Assembly: GCF_001192795.1 (NCBI RefSeq)
Contig: NZ_DF968179.1
Coordinates: 1 to 64,000, forward strand
DNA: 64,000 nt
Reading direction: 5' to 3'
Source of the DNA: Flexilinea flocculi
GTDB taxonomy: Bacteria; Chloroflexota; Anaerolineae; Anaerolineales; Anaerolineaceae
The translations under genes were made by a program, and so were the position numbers. This document shows positions 1,804 through 64,000 of the stretch, piece by piece. The notes beneath the pieces are model-generated. The model saw nothing but the letters and a program-made list of their open reading frames with translations. It ran no database searches and was not told where the DNA came from. Numbering within the stretch: the stretch's first letter is position 1; each line of letters begins with the position of its first letter.

Positions 1804-4800
1804 ATGGAGAACAAAAACAACGAAACACAGAAGTGTTGGAAAGACCGAGAGATGGAGCAAGGATTTGACTGGCGGATATATGAGGCAAGGATTCTGACAT
1901 TATCGAAGTATATCGATAATAAGGATACATCTATTCTTGATTTAGGTGCCGGAAAGATGTATTTAAAAAAATTGATCCCTGAGTCTATAACATACTTTCC
2001 AGTAGATTTCGTCGCAAGATGCGAACAGACAATTGTCTGCAATTTCAATAAAAAAGAGTTTCCTGATCTGCAAGCTGATGTGGCATTCCTTTCAAGTATA
2101 TTGGAATATATCGAAGATACAGAATGGTTTTTTGAACAAATTTCTTTGGTTGTGAAAAAAATTATTTTATCTTATAGTTGTTTGGAAGCCTTTCCTGATA
2201 TTAATTATCGGCGAAGCCGCGGATGGCTAAATGATTTATCAACAGATGAAATAATCAGCTCACTCCAAAACAAAGGATTCATACTCATAGATCGGAGTCA
2301 ACGGGGTACAAATCAATCATTTTTATGCTTCATTAAAGCAAAACCTGAGAATCTCCCACAAAACTTTTATTGTTCTGGATGCGGTTCATGTGCGAATGCC
2401 TGCCCCACGGATGCAATACAATTGCATCCTGACGTAAATGGCTTCTATCGCCCGTTGTTTGATCATGCAAAGTGTATCCAGTGTGGCAAGTGTGTTGATA
2501 TTTGTCCAACGCTTCATCCGTCCTACAAAAATGTAGCTACACCACCCTGCTATGCATTTATGGCAGATGATTATACCCGTTCCGAAAGTTCATCCGGCGG
2601 TGTATTCCCTCTTATCGCAAAAAAAATGTTAGAAACTGGGGGAGTTGTTTGCGGGGCAGCATGGGACCAAAATTTTTGTGTGGAGCATATTATTATTGAT
2701 CATGAAGATAACCTGGATCGACTGCGTCATTCAAAATATCTGCAAAGCTATATAGGAACCATCTATCGAGAAGTTAAATCTCGTTTGGGGAAAGGTACCC
2801 CGGTTTTGTTTACCGGTTGCCCTTGTCAAGTTGCAGGGTTAAACGCTTTTCTCAATAATAAATATGAGAATTTATATACCATAGATTTATTCTGTCATTA
2901 TTCCCCTTCACAACTCCATTTTAAAGAGTATCTAGAAGATACGTTTGGTATAAGAAATATTAGTAAATACGAATTTCGTGTAAAAAACACGGGTTGGCTT
3001 GACGATACACACAAGGTTGTTTTTAAGGATGGAATTGAGCAAATCCGTCATTTGGATGATGACATGTATCAACAAGCCTATCATCCTAGGTTGCTCATGA
3101 ATAAGGCATGCGAAAATTGTCGTTTTTTTGGTTTTCCGAGGCAGGGGGATATTTCGATAGGAGATTTTCATGGGATAGATGCTTATGATCCGTCGCTGAA
3201 CGATAAAAAGGGGACAAGTGTAATTCTTGTCAACAACGAAAAGGGAGAACAGCTTTTGCAAATAGCTCAGACCGGGAGTAAGTTATGTAAAGAAGTTCCT
3301 CTTGCATGGATTATGAACAATCGGGTTACTAATAATTTTCCGGCGCATCCGGCACGCAATAGATTCTATGAACTCTCAAGATACATGCCTTTCCGTCAAG
3401 CAGTGGAGTATTCACTGAAAAGCAGATATGATGTAGGAATTGTTGGAATATGGAGTGTAGAAAACTATGGCTCCAATATGAGCTATTATGCCCTGTATCA
3501 AGTGATACGCGATATGGGCTTTGAGCCTCTCATGATTGAACGGCCGACAGATTCTATATGGAAACCGCATGATATGCCTATTAGGTTCAAATACAATCCG
3601 TATCGCTCCTTTGATCTTGCACATTTATATCAAAGTAAGATTGAAATGAGAGAACTCAATAACTTTTGCGATATGTTTTTGGTTGGATCAGACCAACTTT
3701 TCAGAGACAATTTGTATCATCAATTTGGTAAATATATAACGCTGGATTGGGTAAGTGACCGAAAGAAAAAAGTTGCATATGCTGCATCTTTTGGTGCTGA
3801 TTATTTCGAAGGATCGGATGAAACCCGAGCTGAAATGTCTTATTTTATGAATAAATTTGATCGGTTTTCGGTTAGAGAAAAATGCGGTGTTGATTTAGCC
3901 AAAAATGCTTTCGGCATTGACGCGGATTTTGTTCTTGATCCCGTATTTTTGTGTGATAAAAAGCACTATGACGCTCTGGTCGCAAAGGGACACAAGCCGA
4001 AAGAAAAACATATCGCAGCCTATATACTGGATCCTGACGATGATAAACAAGAGATACTCACATCCATATCCAAAACGTTAGGGTTGAATTGTAATATCTT
4101 CTCAGATTCTAATTATCAGAATGATAGATTCGGGGAATGGTGGCATATTTCTGCAAGCAGTTCCACTTACAACGAGGACTGGTTGAGAGATATTGTAGAC
4201 AGTGATTTTGTAATTGCCGATTCATTCCATGGGATATGTTTTGCAATCATCTATAGAAAACCCTTTATCGCAATAGCAAACAAAAGAAGGGGAATAACTA
4301 GATTCACATCCCTGCTGAATTTGCTCGGATTAGGAGACAGGCTCATTTTCAATGCACAACAACTTGAGAACAAGTTCGAGTACCTTATGAAGATCGATTA
4401 TGACAAAGTTTATTTGATTTTAAACAAGGAAAAAGCACGAAGCATAAACTGGCTTAAAAGTACCCTTACTCCAATGATTCCCAAAAAACCGATGTCAACG
4501 TACGATTTTTTCAGTGAAAAACTACTTACGGTCGACCAGCGTTTTGCCAGAGTAGACAATTTTGCAGACGATGTCAACCAACGTTTTACTGCGATCAACG
4601 ATTTCACGGATAATGTCAATCAACGTTTTACTGTAGTAGACAAATTCGCAGACGATGTCAACCAGCGTTTTACTGCAGTCAACGATTTCACAGATAATGT
4701 CAATCAGCGTTTTTCTGTAGTAGACAAATTCGCAGACGATGTCAACCAACGTTTTACTGCAGTCAATGATTTCACAGATAATGTCGACCAGCGTTTTTCT

Positions 4801-5286
4801 GTAGTAGACAAATTCGCAGACGATGTCAACCAACGTTTTACTGCGATCAACGATTTCACAGATAATGTCAATCAGCGTTTTACTGTAGTAGACAAATTCG
4901 CACACGATGTCAACCAACATTTTACTGTAGTAGACAAATTCGCAGACGATGTCAACCAACGTTTTACTGTAGTAGACAAATTCGCAGATGATGTCAATCA
5001 GCGTTTTACTGCGATCAACGATTTCACAGATAATGTCAATCAGCGTTTTACTGTAGTAGACAAATTCGCAGATGATGTCAACCAACGTTTTGTTTTGATA
5101 GAGAAATGGGTTAACAACCAAAATAATCAAATAAACTCGTTAAATAATGATATAACCCGTTTACAAGACACATTGTGCCAGAAGGAACAGGAATTGGCGA
5201 GAATGTATAAATCGAAAACATTTAAAATTGGTCGGATAATTGCCTATATTCCTCGAAAGATATATTTTTTACTTTCAAGAAAATAG
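1804..5286 (+). CDS. Fused methyltransferase-like / 4Fe-4S FrhB-like / polysaccharide pyruvyl transferase protein with coiled-coil repeat
   Basis: This is a 1160-residue multidomain protein. Residues 1-175 resemble a class I SAM methyltransferase (SILDLGAGK near residue 43). Residues 185-240 hold two 4Fe-4S motifs (CSGCGSCANACP, CIQCGKCVDICP). Residues 245-525 match coenzyme F420 hydrogenase/dehydrogenase beta subunits (SSGGVFPLIA, FTGCPCQVAGL, CENCRFFGFPRQGDISIGDF). Residues 540-880 match polysaccharide pyruvyl transferases (GIWSVENYGSNMSYYALYQ, FLVGSDQLF, ADSFHGICFAI). Residues 913-1094 are 13 tandem 14-residue units, followed by a coiled coil and a basic tail (KTFKIGRIIAYIPRK) like those in cell-surface glycosyltransferases. 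FrhB-like and pyruvyl-transferase domains do occur together in glycan clusters. A role in capsule or glycan decoration is inferred; the substrate is unknown. GGAG at 1789-1792 supports the start. Confidence 0.8.
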   Translation: MENKNNETQKCWKDREMEQGFDWRIYEARILTLSKYIDNKDTSILDLGAGKMYLKKLIPESITYFPVDFVARCEQTIVCNFNKKEFPDLQADVAFLSSILEYIEDTEWFFEQISLVVKKIILSYSCLEAFPDINYRRSRGWLNDLSTDEIISSLQNKGFILIDRSQRGTNQSFLCFIKAKPENLPQNFYCSGCGSCANACPTDAIQLHPDVNGFYRPLFDHAKCIQCGKCVDICPTLHPSYKNVATPPCYAFMADDYTRSESSSGGVFPLIAKKMLETGGVVCGAAWDQNFCVEHIIIDHEDNLDRLRHSKYLQSYIGTIYREVKSRLGKGTPVLFTGCPCQVAGLNAFLNNKYENLYTIDLFCHYSPSQLHFKEYLEDTFGIRNISKYEFRVKNTGWLDDTHKVVFKDGIEQIRHLDDDMYQQAYHPRLLMNKACENCRFFGFPRQGDISIGDFHGIDAYDPSLNDKKGTSVILVNNEKGEQLLQIAQTGSKLCKEVPLAWIMNNRVTNNFPAHPARNRFYELSRYMPFRQAVEYSLKSRYDVGIVGIWSVENYGSNMSYYALYQVIRDMGFEPLMIERPTDSIWKPHDMPIRFKYNPYRSFDLAHLYQSKIEMRELNNFCDMFLVGSDQLFRDNLYHQFGKYITLDWVSDRKKKVAYAASFGADYFEGSDETRAEMSYFMNKFDRFSVREKCGVDLAKNAFGIDADFVLDPVFLCDKKHYDALVAKGHKPKEKHIAAYILDPDDDKQEILTSISKTLGLNCNIFSDSNYQNDRFGEWWHISASSSTYNEDWLRDIVDSDFVIADSFHGICFAIIYRKPFIAIANKRRGITRFTSLLNLLGLGDRLIFNAQQLENKFEYLMKIDYDKVYLILNKEKARSINWLKSTLTPMIPKKPMSTYDFFSEKLLTVDQRFARVDNFADDVNQRFTAINDFTDNVNQRFTVVDKFADDVNQRFTAVNDFTDNVNQRFSVVDKFADDVNQRFTAVNDFTDNVDQRFSVVDKFADDVNQRFTAINDFTDNVNQRFTVVDKFAHDVNQHFTVVDKFADDVNQRFTVVDKFADDVNQRFTAINDFTDNVNQRFTVVDKFADDVNQRFVLIEKWVNNQNNQINSLNNDITRLQDTLCQKEQELARMYKSKTFKIGRIIAYIPRKIYFLLSRK
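4540..5085 (+). repeat. 13 tandem 42-bp coding repeats (14 residues each)
   Basis: The units read RFTVVDKFADDVNQ (type A) or RFTAINDFTDNVNQ (type B). From unit 1 to unit 9 they alternate A-B, forming an 84-bp higher-order unit; units 9, 10 and 11 are all type A, and alternation then resumes. Each 14-mer equals two heptads with hydrophobic residues at 2, 5, 9 and 12, which fits an uninterrupted coiled coil. A fourteenth degenerate unit (RFVLIEKW...) leads into the C-terminal helix. The near-identical DNA suggests recent expansion by slippage or unequal crossover, so the copy number may vary between strains. Confidence 0.95.
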
Positions 5287-5764: not shown

Positions 5765-7800
5765 GACTTTAGGAGAACGAAACGCAAGTTACTCATAAGA
5801 AAAAGATAAAATGAGCCAAAAAACGGTTGGAGAATTTGTCCTCTTATCTAAGGTTAATAGAAAGGTCGAGTTTGGTAGCAGCCCGGAATTGAGTCAACGT
5901 CATATTCGTTTTCAAAGGAGGGCAACCGATAAGTTGAGCAAGATCGAGAAAAGACTGCTCAGTAATCGTGGGCGTCACCACGCAACGGGGAAACTTACCC
6001 TGTACCAGGATTTCAGCTTCACGAACTGAACGCATAATATCTTCAGCCGAAATTGAAGTTTTGTACTGTTGGTTCCATAAAAACTGGATATAACGAATAA
6101 TACACAGACAAAGATAACAAAGTAAGAAGTGCCCACGAATATGGGCATCATTCCAAACGAACACAGGGCGAGCTTGCAAGTCAGTTTTCAACACTCTGAA
6201 GCTTTCTTCGATTTTCCACAATCCGCGGTAAATCCCCGTAACCTTGGCAGTGTCCAGATCAAGATTGTTTGTGATATATGCATAGTAACCATCAAACCTT
6301 TCGGACTCCGCGACTTTGGCGTTATCAATCATCCAATCACTCGTATCCAGTTCCATGGCAAGAAACTGGTTGCAACCACGTCTCATATCAGCCTTCAATT
6401 GATATGGCTTATCCAGACGTTTTCCAAGTTTCGCAAGCAATTGTTCCCGATCCAACCGATCTTTTGTCGCCCGTTCCTTTGTCCAGGTCATATGTATTTT
6501 CACGGGAACCCGCATCATATCGTACTTTTTGGGGCGGCCTCTCTTTTTGGGCGTATCTGTTTTTTTACTGTTATCGATTGGAACATGAACTTCAAGGTAC
6601 TCTTCGCTAATCTTGCTTTTTGAGAGAACTTCTCCGGTTTTATTATCCCTGATTTCTTTCCAGTCAGTATCGTTGAATACCAGATTACGAAAAGCTTGTG
6701 GTGACTTTTTCAGCGTGTAGCTTATAACAAAGTCATGCCCGGAATTGTATAGAAACTCCAAATTGGTGCCACTGTTCAGGCCACGATCTGCAACGATCGT
6801 TATCTTGTCCAAATTGTACAAACGTTTCAGCTTTTCGACAGCCTTTGTCAGTGTGGTCTGATCCATCGTATTCCCCGGAAACAGTTCATAGGTGATCGGA
6901 ATGCCATTACTGTCGATCAGTAGTCCCATAACAACTTGTACTTCATTGTTTTTGTGATCTTTTGAAAACCCGAACATCCGTAATTCACCCCATTGCGTGC
7001 TTTCAAATGCATATGTCGTTACGTCATAAAAGGTCACCTTCTCATTACGATCCGTTGCCTTTCCTAAGAAACTTGAAAGATGCTCAATAACGGTTTCCTT
7101 TTGCTGATCCAGGACATCCAGAACATCATAACAAACATCAAGGCCAACCGGGTATACGCCAGCGTATGCAGTTTGTTCCTTCTGACTGCTGACTATACTG
7201 TCAGGATTGATGCATCGGTGAGCAACAAGATAATATAAAGCATTGGCAACCATTTCGGCATTTCGCTTCCCGCAGTTGTCTATAAAAAATTTGTCTAATC
7301 CCATCTTTTTCCATATCTGCCTGATGATCGCATGTCCGAATTGATATCTTGGCGTGCAATCTTCAACGCATTCGATCTGTTTTACCGGAAGAGATATCTG
7401 GATGGGTGCAATTGCCTCTTTCTTTTGGCGGGTTATTTCTTTTGCTTCCTCTCGGAGTTTTGCGATTATGTCAGGATCATCGGCCAGCATTCTTTCATAA
7501 TTACCAATTGTCTTGACGACATGTGTAGTCTTTTTCTTTGTTCCAGGAATTCTTGTGTCTTCACGATACTGGATAACGCGCGCGTGTCCATTCCCTGAAA
7601 TAGCTACATACATGACAAGCCTCCATAAAACATTTTATGTCTGAATTATACTCGACGTCCAAGGCGCAGTCAAGGAAATAACAGTTCATAACAGGACATT
7701 AATAAACTAATATGAAGCAAAGAAAAAGCTTGAAATCCTGAGGTAATTTCAGCATTTCAAGCTCCAAATAAGCTGTTGTTATCGATTATCTTCTAAAGTC
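5765..7800 (-). mobile_element. IS1634-type insertion sequence
   Basis: An intact 589-codon transposase lies between candidate imperfect terminal repeats: GACTTTAGGAGA at 5765-5776 and the complement of GACTTTAGAAGA at 7789-7800 (11 of 12 matching). The exact termini are uncertain and no target duplication of a few bases is evident next to them. The element lies between the two copies of the 133-bp direct repeat, with about 190 bp of other sequence between its right end and copy B. Confidence 0.6.
5844..7613 (-). CDS. IS1634-family transposase
   Basis: The protein has 589 residues and catalyses DNA cleavage and strand transfer for its own element. The N-terminus (MYVAISGNGHARVIQYREDT) and the DDE core are recognisable: VTFYDVTTYAFES with the first Asp, KITIVADRGLNSGTNLEFL with the second Asp, and a C-terminal YRGLWKIEESFRVLKTDLQ carrying the Glu and the IS4-superfamily Y-(2)-R/K-(3)-E-(6)-K signature. 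The length is normal for IS1634 members and no internal stop is seen, so it may still be active. The start is the ATG at 7613, preceded by GGAGGCTTGTC. It has no neighbours in its operon. Confidence 0.9.
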   Translation of the reverse strand: MYVAISGNGHARVIQYREDTRIPGTKKKTTHVVKTIGNYERMLADDPDIIAKLREEAKEITRQKKEAIAPIQISLPVKQIECVEDCTPRYQFGHAIIRQIWKKMGLDKFFIDNCGKRNAEMVANALYYLVAHRCINPDSIVSSQKEQTAYAGVYPVGLDVCYDVLDVLDQQKETVIEHLSSFLGKATDRNEKVTFYDVTTYAFESTQWGELRMFGFSKDHKNNEVQVVMGLLIDSNGIPITYELFPGNTMDQTTLTKAVEKLKRLYNLDKITIVADRGLNSGTNLEFLYNSGHDFVISYTLKKSPQAFRNLVFNDTDWKEIRDNKTGEVLSKSKISEEYLEVHVPIDNSKKTDTPKKRGRPKKYDMMRVPVKIHMTWTKERATKDRLDREQLLAKLGKRLDKPYQLKADMRRGCNQFLAMELDTSDWMIDNAKVAESERFDGYYAYITNNLDLDTAKVTGIYRGLWKIEESFRVLKTDLQARPVFVWNDAHIRGHFLLCYLCLCIIRYIQFLWNQQYKTSISAEDIMRSVREAEILVQGKFPRCVVTPTITEQSFLDLAQLIGCPPLKTNMTLTQFRAATKLDLSINLR

Positions 7801-8208: not shown

Positions 8209-10488
8209 TTATTTTCTACTCGGAATCGGGATATCACCAGACAAACCAAATTGCACATTGTACTGGTCTTTTACATACCATGTACCGTTTGAAGGCCGGT
8301 ATACAGCTACATCAGTTTTTCCATCTCCGTTATAATCTCCCGGTACTGGGATTTCTTCAGAAGTGCCCCAACCTACATTGAATTGATTTCTTACATACCA
8401 TGTACCGTTTGAAGGCCGGTATACAGCTATATCAGTTTTTCCATCTCCATTATAATCTCCCGATACTGGAATTTCTTCAGAAGTGCCCCAGCCTACATTG
8501 AATTGATTTCTTACATACCATACACCATTTGAAGGCCGGTATACAGCTATATCAGTTTTTCCATCTCCGTTATAATCTCCCGGTACTGGAATTTCTCCAG
8601 AAGTGCCCCAACCTACGTTGAATTGATTTCTTACATACCATACACCTTCCCACGGCCGGTATACGGCTATATCAGTCTTTCCATCTCCGTTATAGTCACC
8701 TGGCACTGGAATATCACCAGATAAACCAAACACTCCATTGAACTGGTTTTTGACAAACCATTCACCACTCCACGGTCGGAATACAGCTACATCAGTCTTT
8801 CCATCTCCGTTATAGTCACCTGGCACTGGAATATCACCAGATAAACCAAACACTTCATATAACTGGTCTTTGACAAACCATTCACCATGCCACGGTCGAA
8901 ATAAAGCTACATCGGTTGTACCATTTCCATCAAAATCAGAGGCGATATTTTGTTTATAATTAGTAAACGCTTTGATTCGGGCGCAACCTAATGAAGTGGA
9001 AGCCATATCATACCACTTACTATTGTAATAAAAACTTTGACCTGCTGATGAATTATTAACAAATTGTATCCAGTTACCGTTTGTATAGGAATAGTCAATA
9101 AAATAACTATTTTCATTGGCGGCTAAATCTACAACAACAGAGAATTTCGTACCCGATGTGATTGCAATCGGGTTTGTCAGCTTAACTGTATGATAGCCTG
9201 CATAAGTTTCTGTGCCAGTAATTACAGCCGATAAAGTCCCATATTCTGGATTAGTTGTTCCAATAACATTTGTGTAAATTTTTATCGTATAGCCTATGTT
9301 TGTTTCGTTTGAAGCGAATGAAACAGCTTCAATCCGTTCATTCTTTTGTGAAGTGAACACGTTTGCCATCTTGTCTACTTTAGTCATATATGCCGAACCT
9401 GCTGATCCGTCATATTGGTAATTTCGATCATAATTATTAGATGACTCAGTATCAAAAAAGAAGAAAGTATTGTCAATGGAAGTATCATAGTAGGAAAGCC
9501 AGAAGTATCCACTATTTCCCCAACCAGAACCCCAGCTGTTTTTAATCAACCAAGCTCCATTCTCAGGCGGATAATCTCCGGAGACATAACCTTTTTTAAA
9601 ATTGTACTTGGAATAATCATCATCCCAGCCAACTACACTTACAATATGATTTATAGATGTGAAGTAATCATTATAATAAGCATAATTTGTATTATAGAAT
9701 AAAGAGTAGGAATAATATTGAATCACACCTGATCCATATTCCATGATTAGTGTCTTGATAGCATTAGTATCTGCGCTATTGATTCTGTAAATATTTTGTA
9801 CATGTCCAGCATCATTCCAATAAGATAATGAACTATCCAATGTCATGTTTGAATCAGCACTAGAATAGGGGGCGAGGTATTCATGAATCGGACCAGTCCA
9901 ACTGGCAGCAGTCCAAGATGAAAAAGATGTATTATGTCCAACATCTAACCAACTATATGAACTAATATTATTTACTTTATCATTAGTGATCAGATTTAAA
10001 GGATCTGCAACACGATGGTAACAAAAATAAGCGAATTGCAGTTCTGAAAAATCAAGATTTGTCGTTGTGACTCTGTTATTAATTATTGCTGATTCTTCTG
10101 CATTCATAGCAGCATGTGCCCAGCAGGTGCCATATGAACCTTGATTTTTTACAGACGTAACTTTCCCATAATTTCGCGAATCATAGCTGACTGGAACTGT
10201 AGCTGGAAGAGTTTTTTCGTCATAGGTAATTCGCGGTGGTATATTAAGATCACTCAACACATCTTCACGTGCGCCATAATTTTCAGGCTTTACTCCGGTA
10301 GCCTGATATATTTCCAATTCTTTTTGTTGCTGTTCATCAGCTTTGGCTGAATTAAAAACATCTCCATCTCTAATGATTGTTTCTTCCCCCCCTAAATCCA
10401 ACTGGTATGCATTGACTGTAAAAGCATTTACCAAGAAAATAATTATTGCAATCAATGTAATCCGAATGCCCAAAGTTTTCTTTTTCAT
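8209..10488 (-). CDS. Secreted papain-like (C1) cysteine protease with six FG-GAP-like repeats
   Basis: The 759-residue protein has a signal peptide (MKKK, hydrophobic stretch to about residue 27) and acts outside the membrane. The papain fold carries Gln116 and Cys122 (VKNQGSYGTCWAHAA), His281 (INHIVSVVGW) and Asn317 (GAWLIKNSWGSGWGNSGYFW). Residues about 355-510 match the lectin-like domain often found after such proteases (FTSQKNERIEAVSF, GYHTVKLTNPIAITSGTKFSVVV). Six 40-residue repeats (DYNGDGKTDIAVYRPSNGTW type) with DxNGDGxTD calcium-binding loops follow, and the protein ends IPIPSRK. GAGGTG at 10494-10499 supports the start. It is a paralogue of the gene at 11656. Degradation of extracellular protein or adhesion is inferred. 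Confidence 0.85.
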   Translation of the reverse strand: MKKKTLGIRITLIAIIIFLVNAFTVNAYQLDLGGEETIIRDGDVFNSAKADEQQQKELEIYQATGVKPENYGAREDVLSDLNIPPRITYDEKTLPATVPVSYDSRNYGKVTSVKNQGSYGTCWAHAAMNAEESAIINNRVTTTNLDFSELQFAYFCYHRVADPLNLITNDKVNNISSYSWLDVGHNTSFSSWTAASWTGPIHEYLAPYSSADSNMTLDSSLSYWNDAGHVQNIYRINSADTNAIKTLIMEYGSGVIQYYSYSLFYNTNYAYYNDYFTSINHIVSVVGWDDDYSKYNFKKGYVSGDYPPENGAWLIKNSWGSGWGNSGYFWLSYYDTSIDNTFFFFDTESSNNYDRNYQYDGSAGSAYMTKVDKMANVFTSQKNERIEAVSFASNETNIGYTIKIYTNVIGTTNPEYGTLSAVITGTETYAGYHTVKLTNPIAITSGTKFSVVVDLAANENSYFIDYSYTNGNWIQFVNNSSAGQSFYYNSKWYDMASTSLGCARIKAFTNYKQNIASDFDGNGTTDVALFRPWHGEWFVKDQLYEVFGLSGDIPVPGDYNGDGKTDVAVFRPWSGEWFVKNQFNGVFGLSGDIPVPGDYNGDGKTDIAVYRPWEGVWYVRNQFNVGWGTSGEIPVPGDYNGDGKTDIAVYRPSNGVWYVRNQFNVGWGTSEEIPVSGDYNGDGKTDIAVYRPSNGTWYVRNQFNVGWGTSEEIPVPGDYNGDGKTDVAVYRPSNGTWYVKDQYNVQFGLSGDIPIPSRK
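8215..8935 (-). repeat. Six 120-bp FG-GAP-like coding repeats
   Basis: Each 40-residue unit follows GDYNGDGKTDIAVYRPSNGxWYV..FGLSGDIPVP. The three units at the C-terminal end (lower coordinates) are nearly identical to the last units of the paralogue at 11656, while the first three have PWHGEWFVK-type sequence specific to this gene. The pattern fits tandem duplication plus exchange between the two genes. Confidence 0.9.
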
Positions 10489-11655: not shown

Positions 11656-14109
11656 TTATTTTCTACTCGGAATCGGGATATCACCAGACAAACCAAATTG
11701 CACATTGTACTGGTCTTTTACATACCATGTACCGTTTAAAGGTCGGAATACGGCTACATCAGTTTTTCCATCTCCGTTATAATCTCCCGGTACTGGAATT
11801 TCTTCAGAAGTGCCCCAACCTACATTGAATTGATTTCTTACATACCATGTACCGTTTGAAGGTCGGAATACGGCTACATCAGTTTTTCCATCTCCGTTAT
11901 AATCTCCCGGTACTGGAATTTCTTCAGAAGTGCCCCAGCCTACATTGAATTGATTTCTTACATACCATACACCATTTGAAGGCCGGTATACAGCTATATC
12001 AGTTTTTCCATCTCCGTTATAATCTCCCGGTACTGGAATATCGCCGTTGTATCCATATGGATTCGTAGATTGGCCTCGGATATACCATGTAGCGTTGGAA
12101 GGACGAAACACCGCAATATCTGTTTTTCCATCTCCGTTGTAATCTCCAGGTACCGGAATATCGCCGTTGTGTCCATATGGAATCGTAGATTGGCCTCGGA
12201 TATACCATGTAGCGTTGGAAGGACGAAATACCGCTATATCTGTTTTTCCATCACCATTGTAATCTCCAGGTACCGGAATATCGCCGTTGTGTCCATATGG
12301 AATCGTAGATTGGCCTCGGATATACCATGTAGCGTTGGAAGGACGAAACACCGCTATATCTGTTTTTCCATCACCGTTGTAATCTCCGGATACTGGAACA
12401 TCGGTACTTCTTCCATATGGAATACTTGACATATTCCGGATATACCAGGTGGCATTGGAAGGACGGAACAATGCAATATCGGTTTGGCCATCCCCATTAA
12501 AATCAGCATTTGGTTTTATTTTTTTTACATTGGTCGTTGTAAATGCTTTGATACGCGGATTGAGCTTGTAATTATTGTAATAATATAAATCAGCCCAGGA
12601 ACCAGAAGACCATTGTCTAAAACTGATACCAGGTTTTGATGAATTTATATAGGTTCCACCACTTGAAGACCAATCGACATACAGTATATTTTCTGTTGCA
12701 TTATAAATTTTAACAACTACTGAAAACTGGCTGCCTTTGTTGATGCTAATTGGCGTTGGAAGTTTCACCGTATGATAACCGGCAAAAGATTCTGAACCTG
12801 TCAAAGTCTTTACTAACGTTCCATTCGCTGGATTAGTCGTTCCTGTTACATTCTTATATATCTTGATTTCATACTGATAAACACTGGAAGGTGTACTATA
12901 TGAAACTGCTTCAAGAAATTCATTCTTTTGTGATGTAAAAAGATTTGCCATGGTGATACTAGCTGTTCCATTCGACCACCAAGCGTTCAATGCTGTTCCA
13001 TCATACTGATAATTATGATCATAATTATTAGCCGGCTCAACCTCAAAGAAAGTTATTTCGTCTTCTATTGTTGCGTCATAATATGAAATCCAGAAATATC
13101 CTTCATCGAGCCACCACAAATCAGATCCCCAGCTATTTTTTATCAACCATGCACCATTTCCGGCAGGTCTGTTTACAAAATTTGAAGCAGAAAAATTATC
13201 ATTCCAACCAATAACACTCACTTCGTGATTTGCATATTGAAAATCAGGATAATAATACGCAAATGTATTCGTATTATATGACAAAGACGTATTAAAATTT
13301 GAATAAAACGCGAGATCTCCTGCGCCATATTTCATAATCATTTGTTTTACTGCATTCCGGTCAGTTTTAAGAACCTGGAAGGCGTTCTGTAAATGCGCAG
13401 AATTATTCAGGTAAGACAAGGAACTACTCAATGCATAATTTGCTATATCTGCACTATTGGAAGGATAAGGAGCGCGTATTTCCTCTGTTGCTCCAGTCCA
13501 ACTGCTCATGAGGGCTATCTCTCTAAAGGCGCTCCCGCCGGAATTAATCCAATCACCATAGGAATCATCCCAATTGTTCTTATCATTCGTAATTAGATTC
13601 AGAGGATCAGCAACCCGATGCCATAAAAAATAAGCCTGTTGTGCTTCTGAAAAATCAACACTTTTGTTAAATACGCCATCTTTAATCAAATTTGATTCCA
13701 CAGCATTGATCGCGGCATGTGCCCAGCAAGTCCCATAACTTCCTTGATTTTTTACACTCGTTACAACATTGTAATTTCGAGCGTCATAGCTCGAAGGAAT
13801 CGCTGCTTTATCAATAAAAATATCATTCGCACTTTCTACACTGTTCAGGGGCACTTTATTAAGAACGACTTCATGTCCAAAATTATAATCTCCTGAAAGA
13901 GTTTTGAATGCATTAAAATAGGCTGCATTTTCTGCATCACTTATAAATAGATTATCGGCTTGTCTGGTTTCCAGTTTTCCATTCTCAACAGAGGGTTCAT
14001 TCTCCTCTTTGATGATCGCAGTTACGAGAGACCCTTCCGCTGGTTTTTCATTTTTTCCTTGAGCAGAAACTATTCTGCTGCCTGAGACCAACAATAAAAT
14101 AAAAACCAA
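11656..14109 (-). CDS. Secreted papain-like (C1) cysteine protease with seven FG-GAP-like repeats
   Basis: This is a paralogue of the gene at 8209, with 817 codons from a TTG at 14109. The catalytic Cys128 lies in VKNQGSYGTCWAHAA, the His in YANHEVSVIGWNDN and the Asn in GAWLIKNSWGSDLWWLDEGY. A lectin-like domain and seven 40-residue FG-GAP-like repeats follow. The start is odd: a good ribosome site (AGGAG, complement of 14156-14160) precedes an in-frame stretch KKKSACISKKFVFLVFILLL, a typical signal peptide, but no ATG/GTG/TTG is at the right place. The paralogue has ATGAAAAAG there. Either the start codon was lost or a base is wrong in the sequence; the TTG start would leave a signal peptide without its basic n-region. 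Confidence 0.75.
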   Translation of the reverse strand: MVFILLLVSGSRIVSAQGKNEKPAEGSLVTAIIKEENEPSVENGKLETRQADNLFISDAENAAYFNAFKTLSGDYNFGHEVVLNKVPLNSVESANDIFIDKAAIPSSYDARNYNVVTSVKNQGSYGTCWAHAAINAVESNLIKDGVFNKSVDFSEAQQAYFLWHRVADPLNLITNDKNNWDDSYGDWINSGGSAFREIALMSSWTGATEEIRAPYPSNSADIANYALSSSLSYLNNSAHLQNAFQVLKTDRNAVKQMIMKYGAGDLAFYSNFNTSLSYNTNTFAYYYPDFQYANHEVSVIGWNDNFSASNFVNRPAGNGAWLIKNSWGSDLWWLDEGYFWISYYDATIEDEITFFEVEPANNYDHNYQYDGTALNAWWSNGTASITMANLFTSQKNEFLEAVSYSTPSSVYQYEIKIYKNVTGTTNPANGTLVKTLTGSESFAGYHTVKLPTPISINKGSQFSVVVKIYNATENILYVDWSSSGGTYINSSKPGISFRQWSSGSWADLYYYNNYKLNPRIKAFTTTNVKKIKPNADFNGDGQTDIALFRPSNATWYIRNMSSIPYGRSTDVPVSGDYNGDGKTDIAVFRPSNATWYIRGQSTIPYGHNGDIPVPGDYNGDGKTDIAVFRPSNATWYIRGQSTIPYGHNGDIPVPGDYNGDGKTDIAVFRPSNATWYIRGQSTNPYGYNGDIPVPGDYNGDGKTDIAVYRPSNGVWYVRNQFNVGWGTSEEIPVPGDYNGDGKTDVAVFRPSNGTWYVRNQFNVGWGTSEEIPVPGDYNGDGKTDVAVFRPLNGTWYVKDQYNVQFGLSGDIPIPSRK
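11662..12505 (-). repeat. Seven 120-bp FG-GAP-like coding repeats
   Basis: The three units nearest the C-terminus are almost identical to those of the gene at 8209 (NGVWYVRNQFNVGWGTS, then NGTWYVKDQYNVQFGLSGD). The four upstream units form a separate homogeneous block (SNATWYIRGQSTIPYGHNGD). This mosaic indicates local expansion of one unit type and gene conversion of the tail between the paralogues. The DxNGDGxTD loops are conserved in all units. Confidence 0.9.
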
Positions 14110-14305: not shown

Positions 14306-16105
14306 CTATTTTTCACGAAAATGATTCCATGGTCTGTCAATAAAATAATCCAGGATATCGATTTTTCCCAGCGGATTAACCCGAATTTCAGAAGTATCAT
14401 AGGATAAATTCGGATTAAAACAGGGGTCATGCTTTTGAATAAAATTTTTCCAACGGGTGATAAACAGTCTTGCCTCCCGGCAAAAGCGCAAATGCTTTTC
14501 GCTGTTGGAATCTTCTGCACCGCGTGTCAGGGATTCATGGTGAAAAAGTTCAGCATAGGGTGTCCAGACATTCCGATAATCCTTTTCCAGCAATCTAAGA
14601 CAAAAATCCACATCATTGTAGGCGAATTGAAAACGCTCGTCGAATCCACCCGCTTCTTCAAATTTCTTCTTCTGCACCATCAGACAGGCGCCGGTCACTG
14701 CCGAGTAATTTTGGATGACCTGCAGACGGCCAAAATATCCCATCGAGGTTGACAATTCACCCAGATAAAGATGTCCTGCGACGCCTCCCATTCCAACAAC
14801 AACACCTGCATGCTGCAGCGTGTGATCGGGATAATATAATTTCGCGCCGACCGCACCAACATCCTTCCGCTGCGCATGCATCAGCAGCTGTTCGATCCAG
14901 TCTTTTGTAATGATCTCAGTGTCATTGTTGAGAAATAAAACAAATTCACCCCTGGCTCTCTGAACCGCAAAATTATTGACAGATGCGTAATTGAAATCTG
15001 CATCCCAATGCAATACCTTTATACTTTTTTCCTGTAATTCCTTATACAAATGAAAAATTTCAGGCGAAGAACTGCCGTTTTCGATGACGATGATTTCGTA
15101 ATTTGCATATGTTGACAATGTTTGGATGGAATGGATGCATCTGCGTAAGGTTTCAGGCTGCTCTTGATTGGGGATCAGAATGGAAACGAAAGGCTGCCCT
15201 TCAATGTGATAAGAAACTCGGTAGGATGTGGGAATTGGACCTGACTGTACGTCCGCTGCAAGACCGCGTCTGACCAATGCATCTGCCAGTGCGTGCTTGC
15301 CCGCTTCATCCGCATACGGTTTTACCGTTATATCCCTGGCTGTTGAAGTTCGCGCTTCCCGCCAATGATAAAGTATCTTGGGAATATGAGTTACTTTTCT
15401 TGTTTTTTCTACAGCTCTCAGAATGAGATCATAATCCTGCGCACCGTCAAAACCTGGTCTAATCCAATCAATTGATTCTCCTAAAGAACGTCGAACGACC
15501 AGAAAATGGGTAATATAGTTCAGACTTAACAAAAAGTCGGGACAAAAATCCGGCTTAAAATGGGGATTACGGCGGTTGCTTCCGTCTTCATAAATAAAAT
15601 CCTCGTCAGAGTATAGCAAATCAATTTTCGGATCTTCAGTAATTTTCGAAACCATTTCTGCTAATGCAATCGGCGCCAACAGATCATCATGATCCAGAAA
15701 ACCAACCCATTCTCCGGATGCATTTTTAAGGGCAATATTGGTATTTTCTGCAATACCATGATTCTTTTCCAGTCGAATGATCTTGATTCGTGGATCATGC
15801 CGGGAATACTTCTCGAGTAAAGCGGAAACCGGACTGCCCGGCACACTCGCATCTGCAAGTATCCATTCCCAGCGTTGATAAGATTGTGCAAGAACAGATT
15901 GAATGGTTGCATGAATGATAGACAACGCCGGGTCTTTGACAGGGGTCACGATCGTAAAGAGCGGGGATTCCAATTCTTCTTTCAGAATATGCGGAAATAG
16001 ATCATTCTGTTCATTAATCTGAATCCATAACTGATAATCCGGATTTATCGATCTCTGAGGCGGGTGCCAACTGTTGTTTAAAGAATTTACTTTCTGTTCT
16101 TTCAT
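14306..16105 (-). CDS. Two-domain family 2 glycosyltransferase
   Basis: The protein has 599 residues. The first GT2 domain (about 65-290) contains FTIVTPVKDP and GFLDHDDLLAP. The second (about 305-560) contains VSILIPNQEQPETLRR, LFLNNDTEII, and FQFAYNDVDFCLRLLEKGY-like sequence as in rhamnosyltransferases of surface polysaccharides. I chose the ATG at 16105 because it overlaps the stop of the upstream gene in ATGA (16105-16102); the longer frame starting at 16165 would overlap that gene by 64 bp and add an unrelated N-terminus. It probably transfers sugars to a lipid-linked surface glycan at the cytoplasmic membrane. Sugar and acceptor cannot be told. Confidence 0.85.
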   Translation of the reverse strand: MKEQKVNSLNNSWHPPQRSINPDYQLWIQINEQNDLFPHILKEELESPLFTIVTPVKDPALSIIHATIQSVLAQSYQRWEWILADASVPGSPVSALLEKYSRHDPRIKIIRLEKNHGIAENTNIALKNASGEWVGFLDHDDLLAPIALAEMVSKITEDPKIDLLYSDEDFIYEDGSNRRNPHFKPDFCPDFLLSLNYITHFLVVRRSLGESIDWIRPGFDGAQDYDLILRAVEKTRKVTHIPKILYHWREARTSTARDITVKPYADEAGKHALADALVRRGLAADVQSGPIPTSYRVSYHIEGQPFVSILIPNQEQPETLRRCIHSIQTLSTYANYEIIVIENGSSSPEIFHLYKELQEKSIKVLHWDADFNYASVNNFAVQRARGEFVLFLNNDTEIITKDWIEQLLMHAQRKDVGAVGAKLYYPDHTLQHAGVVVGMGGVAGHLYLGELSTSMGYFGRLQVIQNYSAVTGACLMVQKKKFEEAGGFDERFQFAYNDVDFCLRLLEKDYRNVWTPYAELFHHESLTRGAEDSNSEKHLRFCREARLFITRWKNFIQKHDPCFNPNLSYDTSEIRVNPLGKIDILDYFIDRPWNHFREK

Positions 16106-49599: not shown

Positions 49600-49615
49600 T
49601 GTTTCACGTGAAACA
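49600..49615. other. parS centromere site
   Basis: TGTTTCACGTGAAACA is a perfect 16-bp palindrome and a full match to the consensus ParB-binding site of Bacillus and many other bacteria. It lies in the 102-bp gap between the divergent ABC-F and cyclophilin genes. ParB loads CTP-dependently at such sites and recruits SMC; parS sites normally cluster around the replication origin. parA and parB are not in the window. Confidence 0.9.
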
Positions 49616-49660: not shown

Positions 49661-50173
49661 ATGTCGAATCATAAAAAATGGTCTCAGAAACCTGATTACT
49701 CATTGGATCTCACAAAGAAATACACAGCCACTATTTGTACAGATCTGGGCGATATTATTATATCGTTGTTTGCCGATAAGGTTCCTATGACCGTAAATAA
49801 TTTTGTATTCCTTGCTAATGAAGGATATTTTGATAATACGATTTTTCATCGCGTGATTCCCGGTTTTATGGCGCAGGCAGGAGATCCAACGGGAACGGGT
49901 ATGGGCGGTCCCGGGTACCAATTTAAAGATGAATTCCATCCTGATTTAAAACATTCCAAGCCAGGAATTCTCTCTATGGCAAATGCGGGTCCGAATACGA
50001 ATGGTTCTCAATTTTTTATTACACATGTCCCTACTCCATGGTTAGATGGAAAGCACGCTGTTTTTGGCGAGGTAATTTCCGGTATGGATGTGGTTTTAAG
50101 CATTCCTGCGCATGATCCGCGTATGAATACACCAGCTGGAAAAATTTTAACCATTAATATTTTGACTATTTAA
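49661..50173 (+). CDS. Cyclophilin-type peptidyl-prolyl isomerase
   Basis: The protein has 170 residues. [19 protein letters not shown] contains the catalytic Arg; [20 protein letters not shown] and [14 protein letters not shown] complete the fold. There is no signal peptide, so it acts in the cytoplasm. It is a standard single-domain enzyme for proline isomerisation. GAGG is eleven bases before the ATG. Confidence 0.95.
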
Positions 50174-50273: not shown

Positions 50274-50447
50274 ATGGCTTATAAGATTAATGCTGATGAA
50301 TGTATCGATTGTGGTGCATGTGAGTCGGAATGCCCTGAAAACGCAATTTCCGAAGCTGATGGTCATATGGAAATCAATCCGGATCTTTGTATCGAATGTG
50401 GCAACTGCGCTGAAGTTTGTCCTGTAGGCGCACCGACAAAACAGTAG
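50274..50447 (+). CDS. 2[4Fe-4S] ferredoxin
   Basis: The protein has 57 residues. The two cluster motifs are [12 protein letters not shown] and [12 protein letters not shown], each a CxxCxxCxxxCP. This is a clostridial-type electron carrier for anaerobic metabolism. GAGGTG is placed seven bases before the ATG. It forms a single-gene unit with its own promoter and a strong terminator just downstream. Confidence 0.96.
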
Positions 50448-50460
50448 CGTTGATTATTAA

Positions 50461-50498
50461 AAAAAAAGGAATCTGCAAATAACAGATTCCTTTTTTTT
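50461..50498 (+). terminator. Rho-independent terminator of the ferredoxin gene
   Basis: GGAATCTG and CAGATTCC pair around the loop CAAATAA, extended by an A-run and a T-run of eight, giving a stem of about 15 bp. It begins 13 bp after the stop. Confidence 0.9.
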
Positions 50499-50514
50499 GT
50501 TTCTATTCATCTAC

Positions 50515-50690
50515 ACATTTTTATAAATATTTTAATAAATATATTCTTTATAGTATAGCTTGTGGAAAATGTGGACAAAGTTTTTCATCCAAAGGAATTC
50601 CTTTGAAAAAAAGGCTTATCTTAAAAATTAATATCTGTGGAATGACCTTAGAATCAATGGGAAAGAAAAAGGATCAAATGTGGAGAAAAA
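50515..50690. other. AT-rich stretch with a cluster of DnaA-box-like 9-mers (candidate origin-type region)
   Basis: Four TGTGGA-type 9-mers in one orientation occur within 127 bp: TGTGGAAAA (50561-50569), TGTGGACAA (50570-50578, directly adjacent), TGTGGAATG (50636-50644) and TGTGGAGAA (50679-50687). The consensus DnaA box is TGTGGATAA; three differ by one base. About 45 bp of nearly pure A/T (50515-50558) precede them, as an unwinding element would. A 14-bp palindrome AAAGGAATTCCTTT is at 50591-50604. parS is about 950 bp away. dnaA is absent from the window. Confidence 0.45.
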
Positions 50691-50731
50691 CGCATTCTTC
50701 AGAAAATAAGTAGTATTCAACAAATAGAAAA

Positions 50732-50763
50732 AAAAGAATCCACAGTTCTTTGTGGATTCTTTT
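50732..50763 (-). terminator. Rho-independent terminator of the nucleotidyltransferase gene
   Basis: AAAAGAATCCACA (50732-50744) and TGTGGATTCTTTT (50751-50763) form a perfect 13-bp stem with a 6-base loop. On the minus strand it is followed by a run of eight T. It overlaps the stop codon of the gene it serves. Confidence 0.85.
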
Positions 50764-51790
50764 AAAGATAGATGGAAGAATTTTCATCAATGCCTTGTTT
50801 TTTCCCCCATTCAAGAATGCTCTCTTCAATAAGGTCAAGATAGTTGTCAACTTGTTTCCTTCTTTTCTCTAAAAATTGAGGTCCAATCTCAATAAAAGAA
50901 CAGAAAGAATGGAAATATTCGTTTTCATCCAACTGATATAACTGAATAATTCGGCTCCAACTTTTTGCGATCAGCCATAATGCTCCAGGGATAAGTTCTT
51001 TCCACAAGCTTTCCACAGCTTTTGTATAATACAACAGCCGATCGGCATGATAACGGATATCATAGTTTACAAGCTCGTTATTCCCAAAATAATCAAGGTA
51101 ATATTTCCAGGAATTGAAGAAATAATCGTAATAAGGAGAAGGATCTTTCTCTCCAATCATCAATCCATATAATTCTCCGGATAAATCTTTCTTATCAATC
51201 GCTTCGGCTTTGCTACGGAAATTTCGCATTAATAAACGATCGGTTAATGGCGAACTGCTTAAACATACGACAGCATTCGAGGCGTTTTCTAAAATCTGGA
51301 GATATTGTTGAACAAAAGAACTTTCCTGAATGATTGATCCCGAGGACAATTCAAGCCATTTTTTCTTTGCTTCATTCAGAAACTGTAAAGATCGCAGGAT
51401 TACGTTTTCGGCCAGAAAAAAATTCGCTTCCAGCGAGGCTTGTGTGAATTTGAACCAATGCCCCCTTTCATATAACAGGATGGGATCAAAGCATAACGAT
51501 GAACCTATCCAAGGATCCGTTCTTAATCTTCTGGGTGGAATAAAAAAGTTTTGGTCGAGATGAAGAATATCAAAAGAAATTTCTGGAGATATTTTTTGGA
51601 TCTCCCGCCGCTGAACGGTATATTCTTCATGGACAATTACCAGATCGATATCCGTTGTTCCATTGATTAATGGTTCGGCTGATGTCATCGAACCAGTCAG
51701 ATAAATACACAGTAAACCGCGATCCTGGTGAATTTTTTTGTTGACGTAACTTTTTGTATAATTGATGAGGCTTTCTTTTGTAACCCGCAT
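50762..51790 (-). CDS. Nucleotidyltransferase-domain protein
   Basis: The protein has 342 residues. The N-terminal fold has LTGSMTSAEPLINGTTDIDL, the GS(x)DxD signature of polymerase-beta-type nucleotidyltransferases, in which Asp-x-Asp binds metal. The remaining 220 residues are alpha-helical without a recognised domain. Relatives include aminoglycoside nucleotidyltransferases and many uncharacterised proteins; the substrate is unknown. It has its own terminator and a 212-bp gap upstream. The start at 51790 is preceded by no clear ribosome site. Confidence 0.7.
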   Translation of the reverse strand: MRVTKESLINYTKSYVNKKIHQDRGLLCIYLTGSMTSAEPLINGTTDIDLVIVHEEYTVQRREIQKISPEISFDILHLDQNFFIPPRRLRTDPWIGSSLCFDPILLYERGHWFKFTQASLEANFFLAENVILRSLQFLNEAKKKWLELSSGSIIQESSFVQQYLQILENASNAVVCLSSSPLTDRLLMRNFRSKAEAIDKKDLSGELYGLMIGEKDPSPYYDYFFNSWKYYLDYFGNNELVNYDIRYHADRLLYYTKAVESLWKELIPGALWLIAKSWSRIIQLYQLDENEYFHSFCSFIEIGPQFLEKRRKQVDNYLDLIEESILEWGKKQGIDENSSIYL

Positions 51791-63308: not shown

Positions 63309-64000
63309 TCACATGGTTTCTTCTGTAACATGGATTTTTGTTTCACATGGAACATATGAGGATACGGAAAGCGAATATCTGCGCGTTCCATTCTCTTCTG
63401 CGATCAAATCGAAACCCAGATCGTCCAACAGATTTGCCACGTATCCATTTTTGGCTGTCGGAATGTATTCTCCCAGAATCTCTGCACAGCCAAAATTTTT
63501 AGCCACTGCAACTATATGGTTCAGCATGGCTTTTTCGAGATCGCGTTTAAAAACACGGCAGCTCATAACCCAGGATTCGATCCATAACCGCTTCCCTTCC
63601 TGTTTACGCAAAATGCAGGCTGAAATCAAGCCGTAATTGCTGAATTTATCGGCAAGTATCGCCCGCAGCGGGTATACTGCTTCATCATTCAGGAGACAAT
63701 CCATCTCGGCTTCCGAATAACGAACAGTCCTGAGATTGAACTGGTTGGTTTTGTTGATTAATTGAGTGAAGCGTTCTGTTTCGGATCGACTGACGCGCCC
63801 GATCCGGGCGTCCATCTCCAAAGCGGCCAGATACGCATCATAGTCAACCGAGCTTTCGCTCAAGCGGATGCGTTCCTGATCCGCTGCGTACGATTGCGCA
63901 CGGGATAAATCTTCTTTCGACAACTGCAGCCAGTCAAAATAGCCTGCCTTGTCCAGTGCGACGCTGAACTGTGCCGGATCTGCCGGAACATCCAGCACCG
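63309..64000 (-). CDS. FkbH-type HAD protein, 5' part outside the window
   Basis: Only the C-terminal 230 residues are present; the reading frame continues past the window edge, so the apparent GTG at 63998 is internal. INKTNQFNLRTVRYSEAEMD and LEMDARIGRVSRSETERFTQ are hallmarks of the C-terminal half of FkbH proteins; the last 100 residues form a GNAT-like domain (HIVAVAKNFGCAEILGEYIP). FkbH-like enzymes dephosphorylate 1,3-bisphosphoglycerate and attach glyceryl to an acyl carrier protein. The ACP gene follows. Confidence 0.88.
   Translation of the reverse strand, partial: VLDVPADPAQFSVALDKAGYFDWLQLSKEDLSRAQSYAADQERIRLSESSVDYDAYLAALEMDARIGRVSRSETERFTQLINKTNQFNLRTVRYSEAEMDCLLNDEAVYPLRAILADKFSNYGLISACILRKQEGKRLWIESWVMSCRVFKRDLEKAMLNHIVAVAKNFGCAEILGEYIPTAKNGYVANLLDDLGFDLIAEENGTRRYSLSVSSYVPCETKIHVTEETM

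Follow-up and report, generated by a model that had tools for sequence, protein, structure and literature searches.

A perfect parS site beside a candidate replication origin in Flexilinea flocculi, with parAB encoded far away

A perfect 16-bp palindrome lies between two divergently transcribed genes of the Chloroflexota bacterium Flexilinea flocculi, raising the questions of whether it is a chromosomal parS site, which proteins would read it, and whether chromosome replication starts nearby. The window analyzed here is a 64,000-nucleotide stretch (positions 1 to 64000 of contig C1) from a genome assembly of three contigs, with 3,510,630 bases and 97.15% completeness. Our preferred reading, to which we assign a probability of about 0.9, is that a ParABS system uses the palindrome as its chromosomal parS, which is situated at the skew-defined origin with a candidate oriC about 1 kb away. 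The site and its immediate flanks are as follows:

49600 to 49615, no strand assigned: parS, perfect 16-bp palindrome TGTTTCACGTGAAACA (exact match, genome count, conservation in the genus)
47660 to about 49558, minus strand: abc-F, a ribosomal-protection-like ABC-F ATPase flanking parS (NF000355, 450.9 bits, cut-off 380)
49661 to 50173, plus strand: cyclophilin-type peptidyl-prolyl isomerase flanking parS (PF00160, 1.4e-49)

An earlier note had described a perfect parS at this place, and we confirmed the match, its coordinates and both neighboring genes. TGTTTCACGTGAAACA occurs there with zero mismatches, becomes an 18-bp perfect palindrome when one base is added per side, and sits in the 102-bp gap that separates the divergent abc-F and cyclophilin genes (the abc-F open reading frame as listed extends to 49591, with a GTG start). 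The parS consensus is described in a review as the 16-bp palindrome TGTTNCACGTGAAACA (PMC7022226), which the window site matches exactly. The earlier note was also right that a chance match in 64 kb would be very unlikely: a first-order Markov model built on the window predicts 3.1e-5 perfect copies per 64 kb and 0.0017 per 3.51 Mb. The window holds three perfect 16-bp palindromes, parS being one. Searching the whole genome for TGTTTCACGTGAAACA returned a single perfect copy plus three two-mismatch places, against two places for a reversed control pattern. Since the scan gave just one perfect copy, this is a single site with no cluster, and a single parS is fewer than many species have, which counts against our reading. 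The earlier note had proposed counting sites and placing them relative to dnaA and skew; with one site the count has no power on clustering and we dropped that argument, while the position of the site at a skew minimum (below) held up. Nor did we find the evenly scattered sites that the earlier note had named as counterevidence. One of the two-mismatch places, TGTTTCACATGGAACA at 63339-63354, falls in the window near the end of an open reading frame, and the identical 16 bases occur in genome G008 with differing near flanks. It lies within a coding region and overlaps a weak 17-bp repeat, and so was not counted as parS; it is possibly a weak second ParB site, or a chance occurrence. An Rfam scan of 47-53 kb gave no match.

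A genome with a working parS should also encode its reader, and here one ParB gene was found (C3:1,593,020-1,593,556; TIGR00180, 190.2 bits, cut-off 58.45), so that the lack of parB, which the earlier note had listed as a possible objection, does not apply. The protein has the three domains PF02195, HTH_ParB and ParB_C, and its gene follows directly downstream of a ParA gene on the same strand, forming the one parAB operon. Genes for SMC (C3:123,027-126,587, 893 bits) and ScpA (C3:71,727-72,368, 98 bits) are likewise present, and the canonical ParB-SMC system predicted from the window is thus borne out at the level of genes, from which SMC loading itself is suggested. Among structure chains, ParB matched Spo0J (E 1.1e-55), Noc (best E 8.6e-54) and ParB (E 1.9e-52); the match table names molecules alone, and we take the Spo0J and ParB chains to be those of Thermus and Caulobacter. 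The sequences GERR and ENVQR are both present, presumably as part of CTP binding. At the four positions that specify parS versus the Noc site, the protein has R, T, K and G. Jalal and others give RTAG for Caulobacter ParB and QKKR for Noc, and report that R173 and G201 are conserved across all orthologs of ParB and that positions 179 and 184 vary (PMC7383237). R156 and G184 of the Flexilinea protein correspond to R173 and G201 in Caulobacter numbering, and the remaining two positions are T and K here versus T and A in Caulobacter.

Conservation of the site was evaluated in 51 genomes, comprising our own, 11 others of the genus, 19 from other genera of the family and 20 from other families of the order. 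Of these, 42 carry the site with no more than one mismatch (11/12 in the genus, 17/19 in the rest of the family, 14/20 beyond the family). Within the genus, abc-F adjoins parS in all 11 loci and cyclophilin in 10, the 11th locus stopping 391 bases beyond the site. The one genus genome without a site is G006, in which the cyclophilin match starts a contig, so the gap is absent from the assembly there. Among the 11 genus genomes with a site, six carry one and five carry two or three, so genus members do not uniformly keep a single copy. In other genera the same 16-mer, often paired, stands next to different genes: a relative of a window ABC ATPase was found in 12 of 19 parS loci outside the genus, and some other neighbors there are presumably SdpI-like, GntR-like or stomatin-like. 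The closest match to the cyclophilin in the named collection was from Flexilinea sp. MO118 (89%). Together with the exact consensus and a ParB above cut-off that carries the Arg and Gly residues, conservation across the genus upholds the identification of the site as parS.

The same observations bear on two other explanations of the palindrome. It might be a transcription-factor operator serving the divergent abc-F and cyclophilin promoters, its likeness to parS being coincidental. The site does lie midway in a short divergent promoter gap, and a review describes repression of nearby genes by Pseudomonas ParB at the intergenic sites parS3 and parS4 (PMC7022226), which would allow for a regulatory side effect; however, an operator fits poorly with one perfect copy in the genome, with a 16-mer that recurs, often paired, by other genes in other genera of the family, 17 of whose 19 genomes have a site with one mismatch at most, and with a resident ParB that has parS-type residues, and we consider it highly improbable. 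Even less credible is a Noc-like nucleoid-occlusion protein, instead of a segregation ParB, as the reader of the site. The protein does align with Noc structures, and the Noc model TIGR04285 gives it 246.2 bits, but that score is under the 315-bit cut-off, R and G replace the Q and R of Noc, a ParA gene lies directly upstream, and the site on the DNA has the sequence of parS.

With the palindrome read as parS, its position relative to the replication origin can be considered. Raw GC skew in this genome is weak and tracks the coding strand without a clear origin, and we therefore used strand-corrected skew at third codon positions (GC3). The cumulative corrected skew has its minimum at 49.6-53.8 kb of the window; from 56 kb onward the 8-kb blocks have positive values, as do the following stretches up to 114 kb. 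In the closed genome of a genus-mate (G002, 2,945,494 bases), the skew sign flips between the 265-285 kb and 290-310 kb stretches and the parS sites lie at 296,306 and 296,353, placing the skew turn within about 15 kb of them. A minus-to-plus change at parS was seen in all three further tests inside genus loci (G002, G004 and G011). Among 13 loci outside the genus, only one (G016) changes from minus to plus, two (G014 and G023) change in the opposite direction and 10 show no sign change, so that skew fails to place the origin beyond the genus. Corrected skew was unreadable in G041, a closed order-level relative. The method locates the switch to within about 10-20 kb. Thus the suggestion that the window is origin-proximal agrees with a corrected skew minimum at the site and with DnaA-box-like motifs about 1 kb away, which support a parS near the replication origin, yet dnaA itself is 162.6 kb from parS (88.6 kb in G002, where it falls inside the positive arm). 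The origin is probably about 1 kb from parS, in a gap with these features:

50274 to 50447, plus strand: small 4Fe-4S ferredoxin gene, left border (NF058577, 79.7 bits, cut-off 65)
50460 to 50498, plus strand, and 50732 to 50763, minus strand: terminator-like hairpins bounding the candidate oriC
50499 to 50731, no strand assigned: candidate oriC, an AT-rich gap (74% A+T) between the two hairpins, with a putative origin function
50561 to 50578, minus strand: adjacent DnaA-box-like 9-mers TTTTCCACA (50561-50569) and TTGTCCACA (50570-50578), by motif scan
50679 to 50687, minus strand: DnaA-box-like 9-mer TTCTCCACA, by motif scan; the same motif is at the matching place in G008
50762 to 51790, minus strand: gene of unknown family, right border (listed open reading frame; no Pfam or NCBIfam match at E 1e-5)

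The A+T content of the gap is equaled by 0.5% of same-sized windows, and the most AT-rich 200-bp stretch of the whole window begins at 50451. Converging genes flank the gap, each with a terminator-like hairpin (two found versus 1.0 expected in shuffles). The densest group of DnaA-box-like motifs in the window, at 50561-50687, consists of three boxes inside 400 bp, with a single mismatch each. Nowhere else in the window do two boxes stand 80-110 bases apart (0.01 expected), a pattern that was defined once the site was known. The corresponding gap of G008 has TTTTCCACA, TTATCCACA and TTCTCCACA in the same order, TTATCCACA being the second box of the adjacent pair. Exact copies of the DnaA box TTATCCACA were not found in the window, and the 34 places in the genome (13 for a reversed control) form no cluster. 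Another trio of looser boxes on contig C2, found among 824 kb sampled elsewhere, counts against the candidate. A perfect 16-bp palindrome, CAAAGGAATTCCTTTG, also lies inside the gap (50590-50605) and is not kept in G008.

Exact boxes are more frequent across the genus: the 11 genus loci contain TTATCCACA 12 times in 30,858 bases, versus 0.34 expected, with at least one in seven loci and none in our own, G003, G009 and G010, the last two being shortened loci. In the seven loci with a box, and also in locus L257, parS and the closest exact box are 0.65-1.2 kb apart. Among 80 named cyclophilin loci, TTATCCACA was present in 4/4 with parS versus 1/76 without, although three of those four apparently belong to genomes that the genus set includes. 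Among the 15 longer loci from other genera and families, five (G030, G021, G016, G024 and G045) have at least two exact boxes within 400 bp and 10 show no such group. In G024 (locus L339), two TTATCCACA triplets with a spacing of 20-21 bases lie at 9130-9179 and 14599-14648, the first ending 12 bases before parS, an even tighter pairing of origin and centromere.

Alternatively, the palindrome may be a true parS near the origin while the working origin lies elsewhere within some tens of kilobases, or at dnaA, and not at 50499-50731. This finds some footing in the candidate gap and the genome, which are without an exact box and an exact-box cluster, respectively, in the 10-20 kb resolution of the skew, and in the 10 longer non-genus loci without an exact-box pair near parS; moreover, exact boxes of G008 also pair elsewhere (on C12), and in the order-level relative G045 the exact-box pair adjoins dnaA, 17.5 kb from parS. 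Against it stand the enrichment of exact boxes in genus gaps, their near restriction to parS-bearing cyclophilin loci, and the position of G002 dnaA 88.6 kb from parS on the positive arm. In addition, for G030 and G021, which have 43 and 52 exact boxes and for which the genome-wide comparison uses complete lists, the only runs of at least three within 300 bp are 4.3 and 8.8 kb from parS. On balance we judge a different origin unlikely, though considerably less so than the operator or Noc readings, and take 50499-50731 as the candidate for the working origin.

The position of parAB is the part of this system that goes beyond the earlier note, along with a candidate oriC in a window without dnaA. 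Chromosomal par operons are described as oriC-proximal in a review (PMC7022226), and parAB near the origin is usual, though not defining, for a chromosomal parS; that arrangement was not found here. The parB gene is at 1.593 Mb of contig C3, by a plus-to-minus change in corrected skew, which is positive in five stretches from 1.44 to 1.60 Mb, about zero from 1.62 to 1.68 Mb (one stretch at +0.055) and negative in all 11 stretches between 1.68 and 2.29 Mb, though barely so in the final one. Earlier stretches at 1.08, 1.20 and 1.32 Mb are also negative, against this simple picture, two of them with few or one-sided genes. As contig C2 is unplaced and simple joins give unequal arms, the terminus of this genome is read from C3 alone. 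In G002, the skew turns at 1.675-1.695 Mb and parB is at 1.637 Mb, 1.34 Mb from parS, or 0.455 of the genome. Thus, in the two genomes with readable skew, parAB lies near the skew-defined terminus. Sampled stretches of both genomes gave no convincing dif-like site to mark that terminus. Both parS and parB were found in 41 genomes. The only two in which they share a contig are the single-contig assemblies G002 and G041, with separations of 1.34 and 1.09 Mb, respectively; in fragmented genomes, different contigs mean only that the two are not close neighbors. At even odds, abc-F, parS, cyclophilin and oriC form a compact block conserved across the genus, with dnaA outside it and parAB near the terminus. 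ParA and ParB would then be encoded by the last-copied DNA and act on the first-copied, and this split layout, if true, could link the dosage of ParAB to when replication finishes.

From the site and these genes we infer the following route. ParB from the distant parAB operon would bind parS, close there as a CTP-dependent clamp and then slide onto flanking DNA; ParA would move ParB and so separate sister origins, and ParB may help to load SMC-ScpAB at parS. With parS at the skew-defined origin and about 1 kb from the candidate oriC, the first-copied DNA would therefore be segregated first, and the organism probably separates its copied chromosomes by this one parS.

Compared with known systems, the palindrome is a regular chromosomal parS. 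It resembles Bacillus Soj/Spo0J and Caulobacter ParAB in the 16-bp site, the three-domain ParB, the ParA gene beside parB, and SMC with ScpA, and differs from them in having one site and a parAB operon far from it, near the skew-defined terminus. Species with one parS per chromosome exist, such as Xanthomonas campestris (as cited in PMC7333895), which Flexilinea flocculi matches in number, whereas almost half of the genus genomes with a site have more. Noc and its site are a related protein and a related palindrome, from which this system is set apart by R and G in place of Q and R and by the sub-cut-off score. The candidate oriC shares an AT-rich gap, DnaA-box-like motifs and a skew switch with DnaA-dependent origins, and differs in its distance of 163 kb from dnaA and in boxes that are one mismatch off the consensus. 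The parts are known already and only the split layout is unusual.

For relatives of Flexilinea and for Anaerolineales, these results supply a centromere defined by sequence along with a candidate origin. Among the best literature matches we found no account of parS or oriC in Anaerolineae, Chloroflexi or Flexilinea, which is weak evidence of absence since subscription journals are mostly outside the coverage; the checked part of PMC7203096 contains no whole-word parS, ParB, oriC or replication origin. The near-maximal separation of parAB and parS for a chromosome is a natural case in which effects of parAB position or dosage on segregation can be asked about.

Elsewhere in the window, several large open reading frames were observed, as were transposase-like frames near the start of the contig. 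A 1160-aa open reading frame (1804-5286) has pyruvyl-transferase and FrhB-like domains and, near its end, a 42/84-bp tandem repeat that yields repeated FADDVNQRF/FTDNVNQRF units. Two large frames similar to each other, at 8209-10488 and 11656-14109, have 120-bp tandem repeats, and a domain scan of the latter indicated a papain-family protease that carries a lectin-like domain and FG-GAP repeats. Of the transposase-like frames, one at 147-1608 has a DUF772 domain and is apparently split over two overlapping frames, and the other, at 5844-7613, has a DDE domain.
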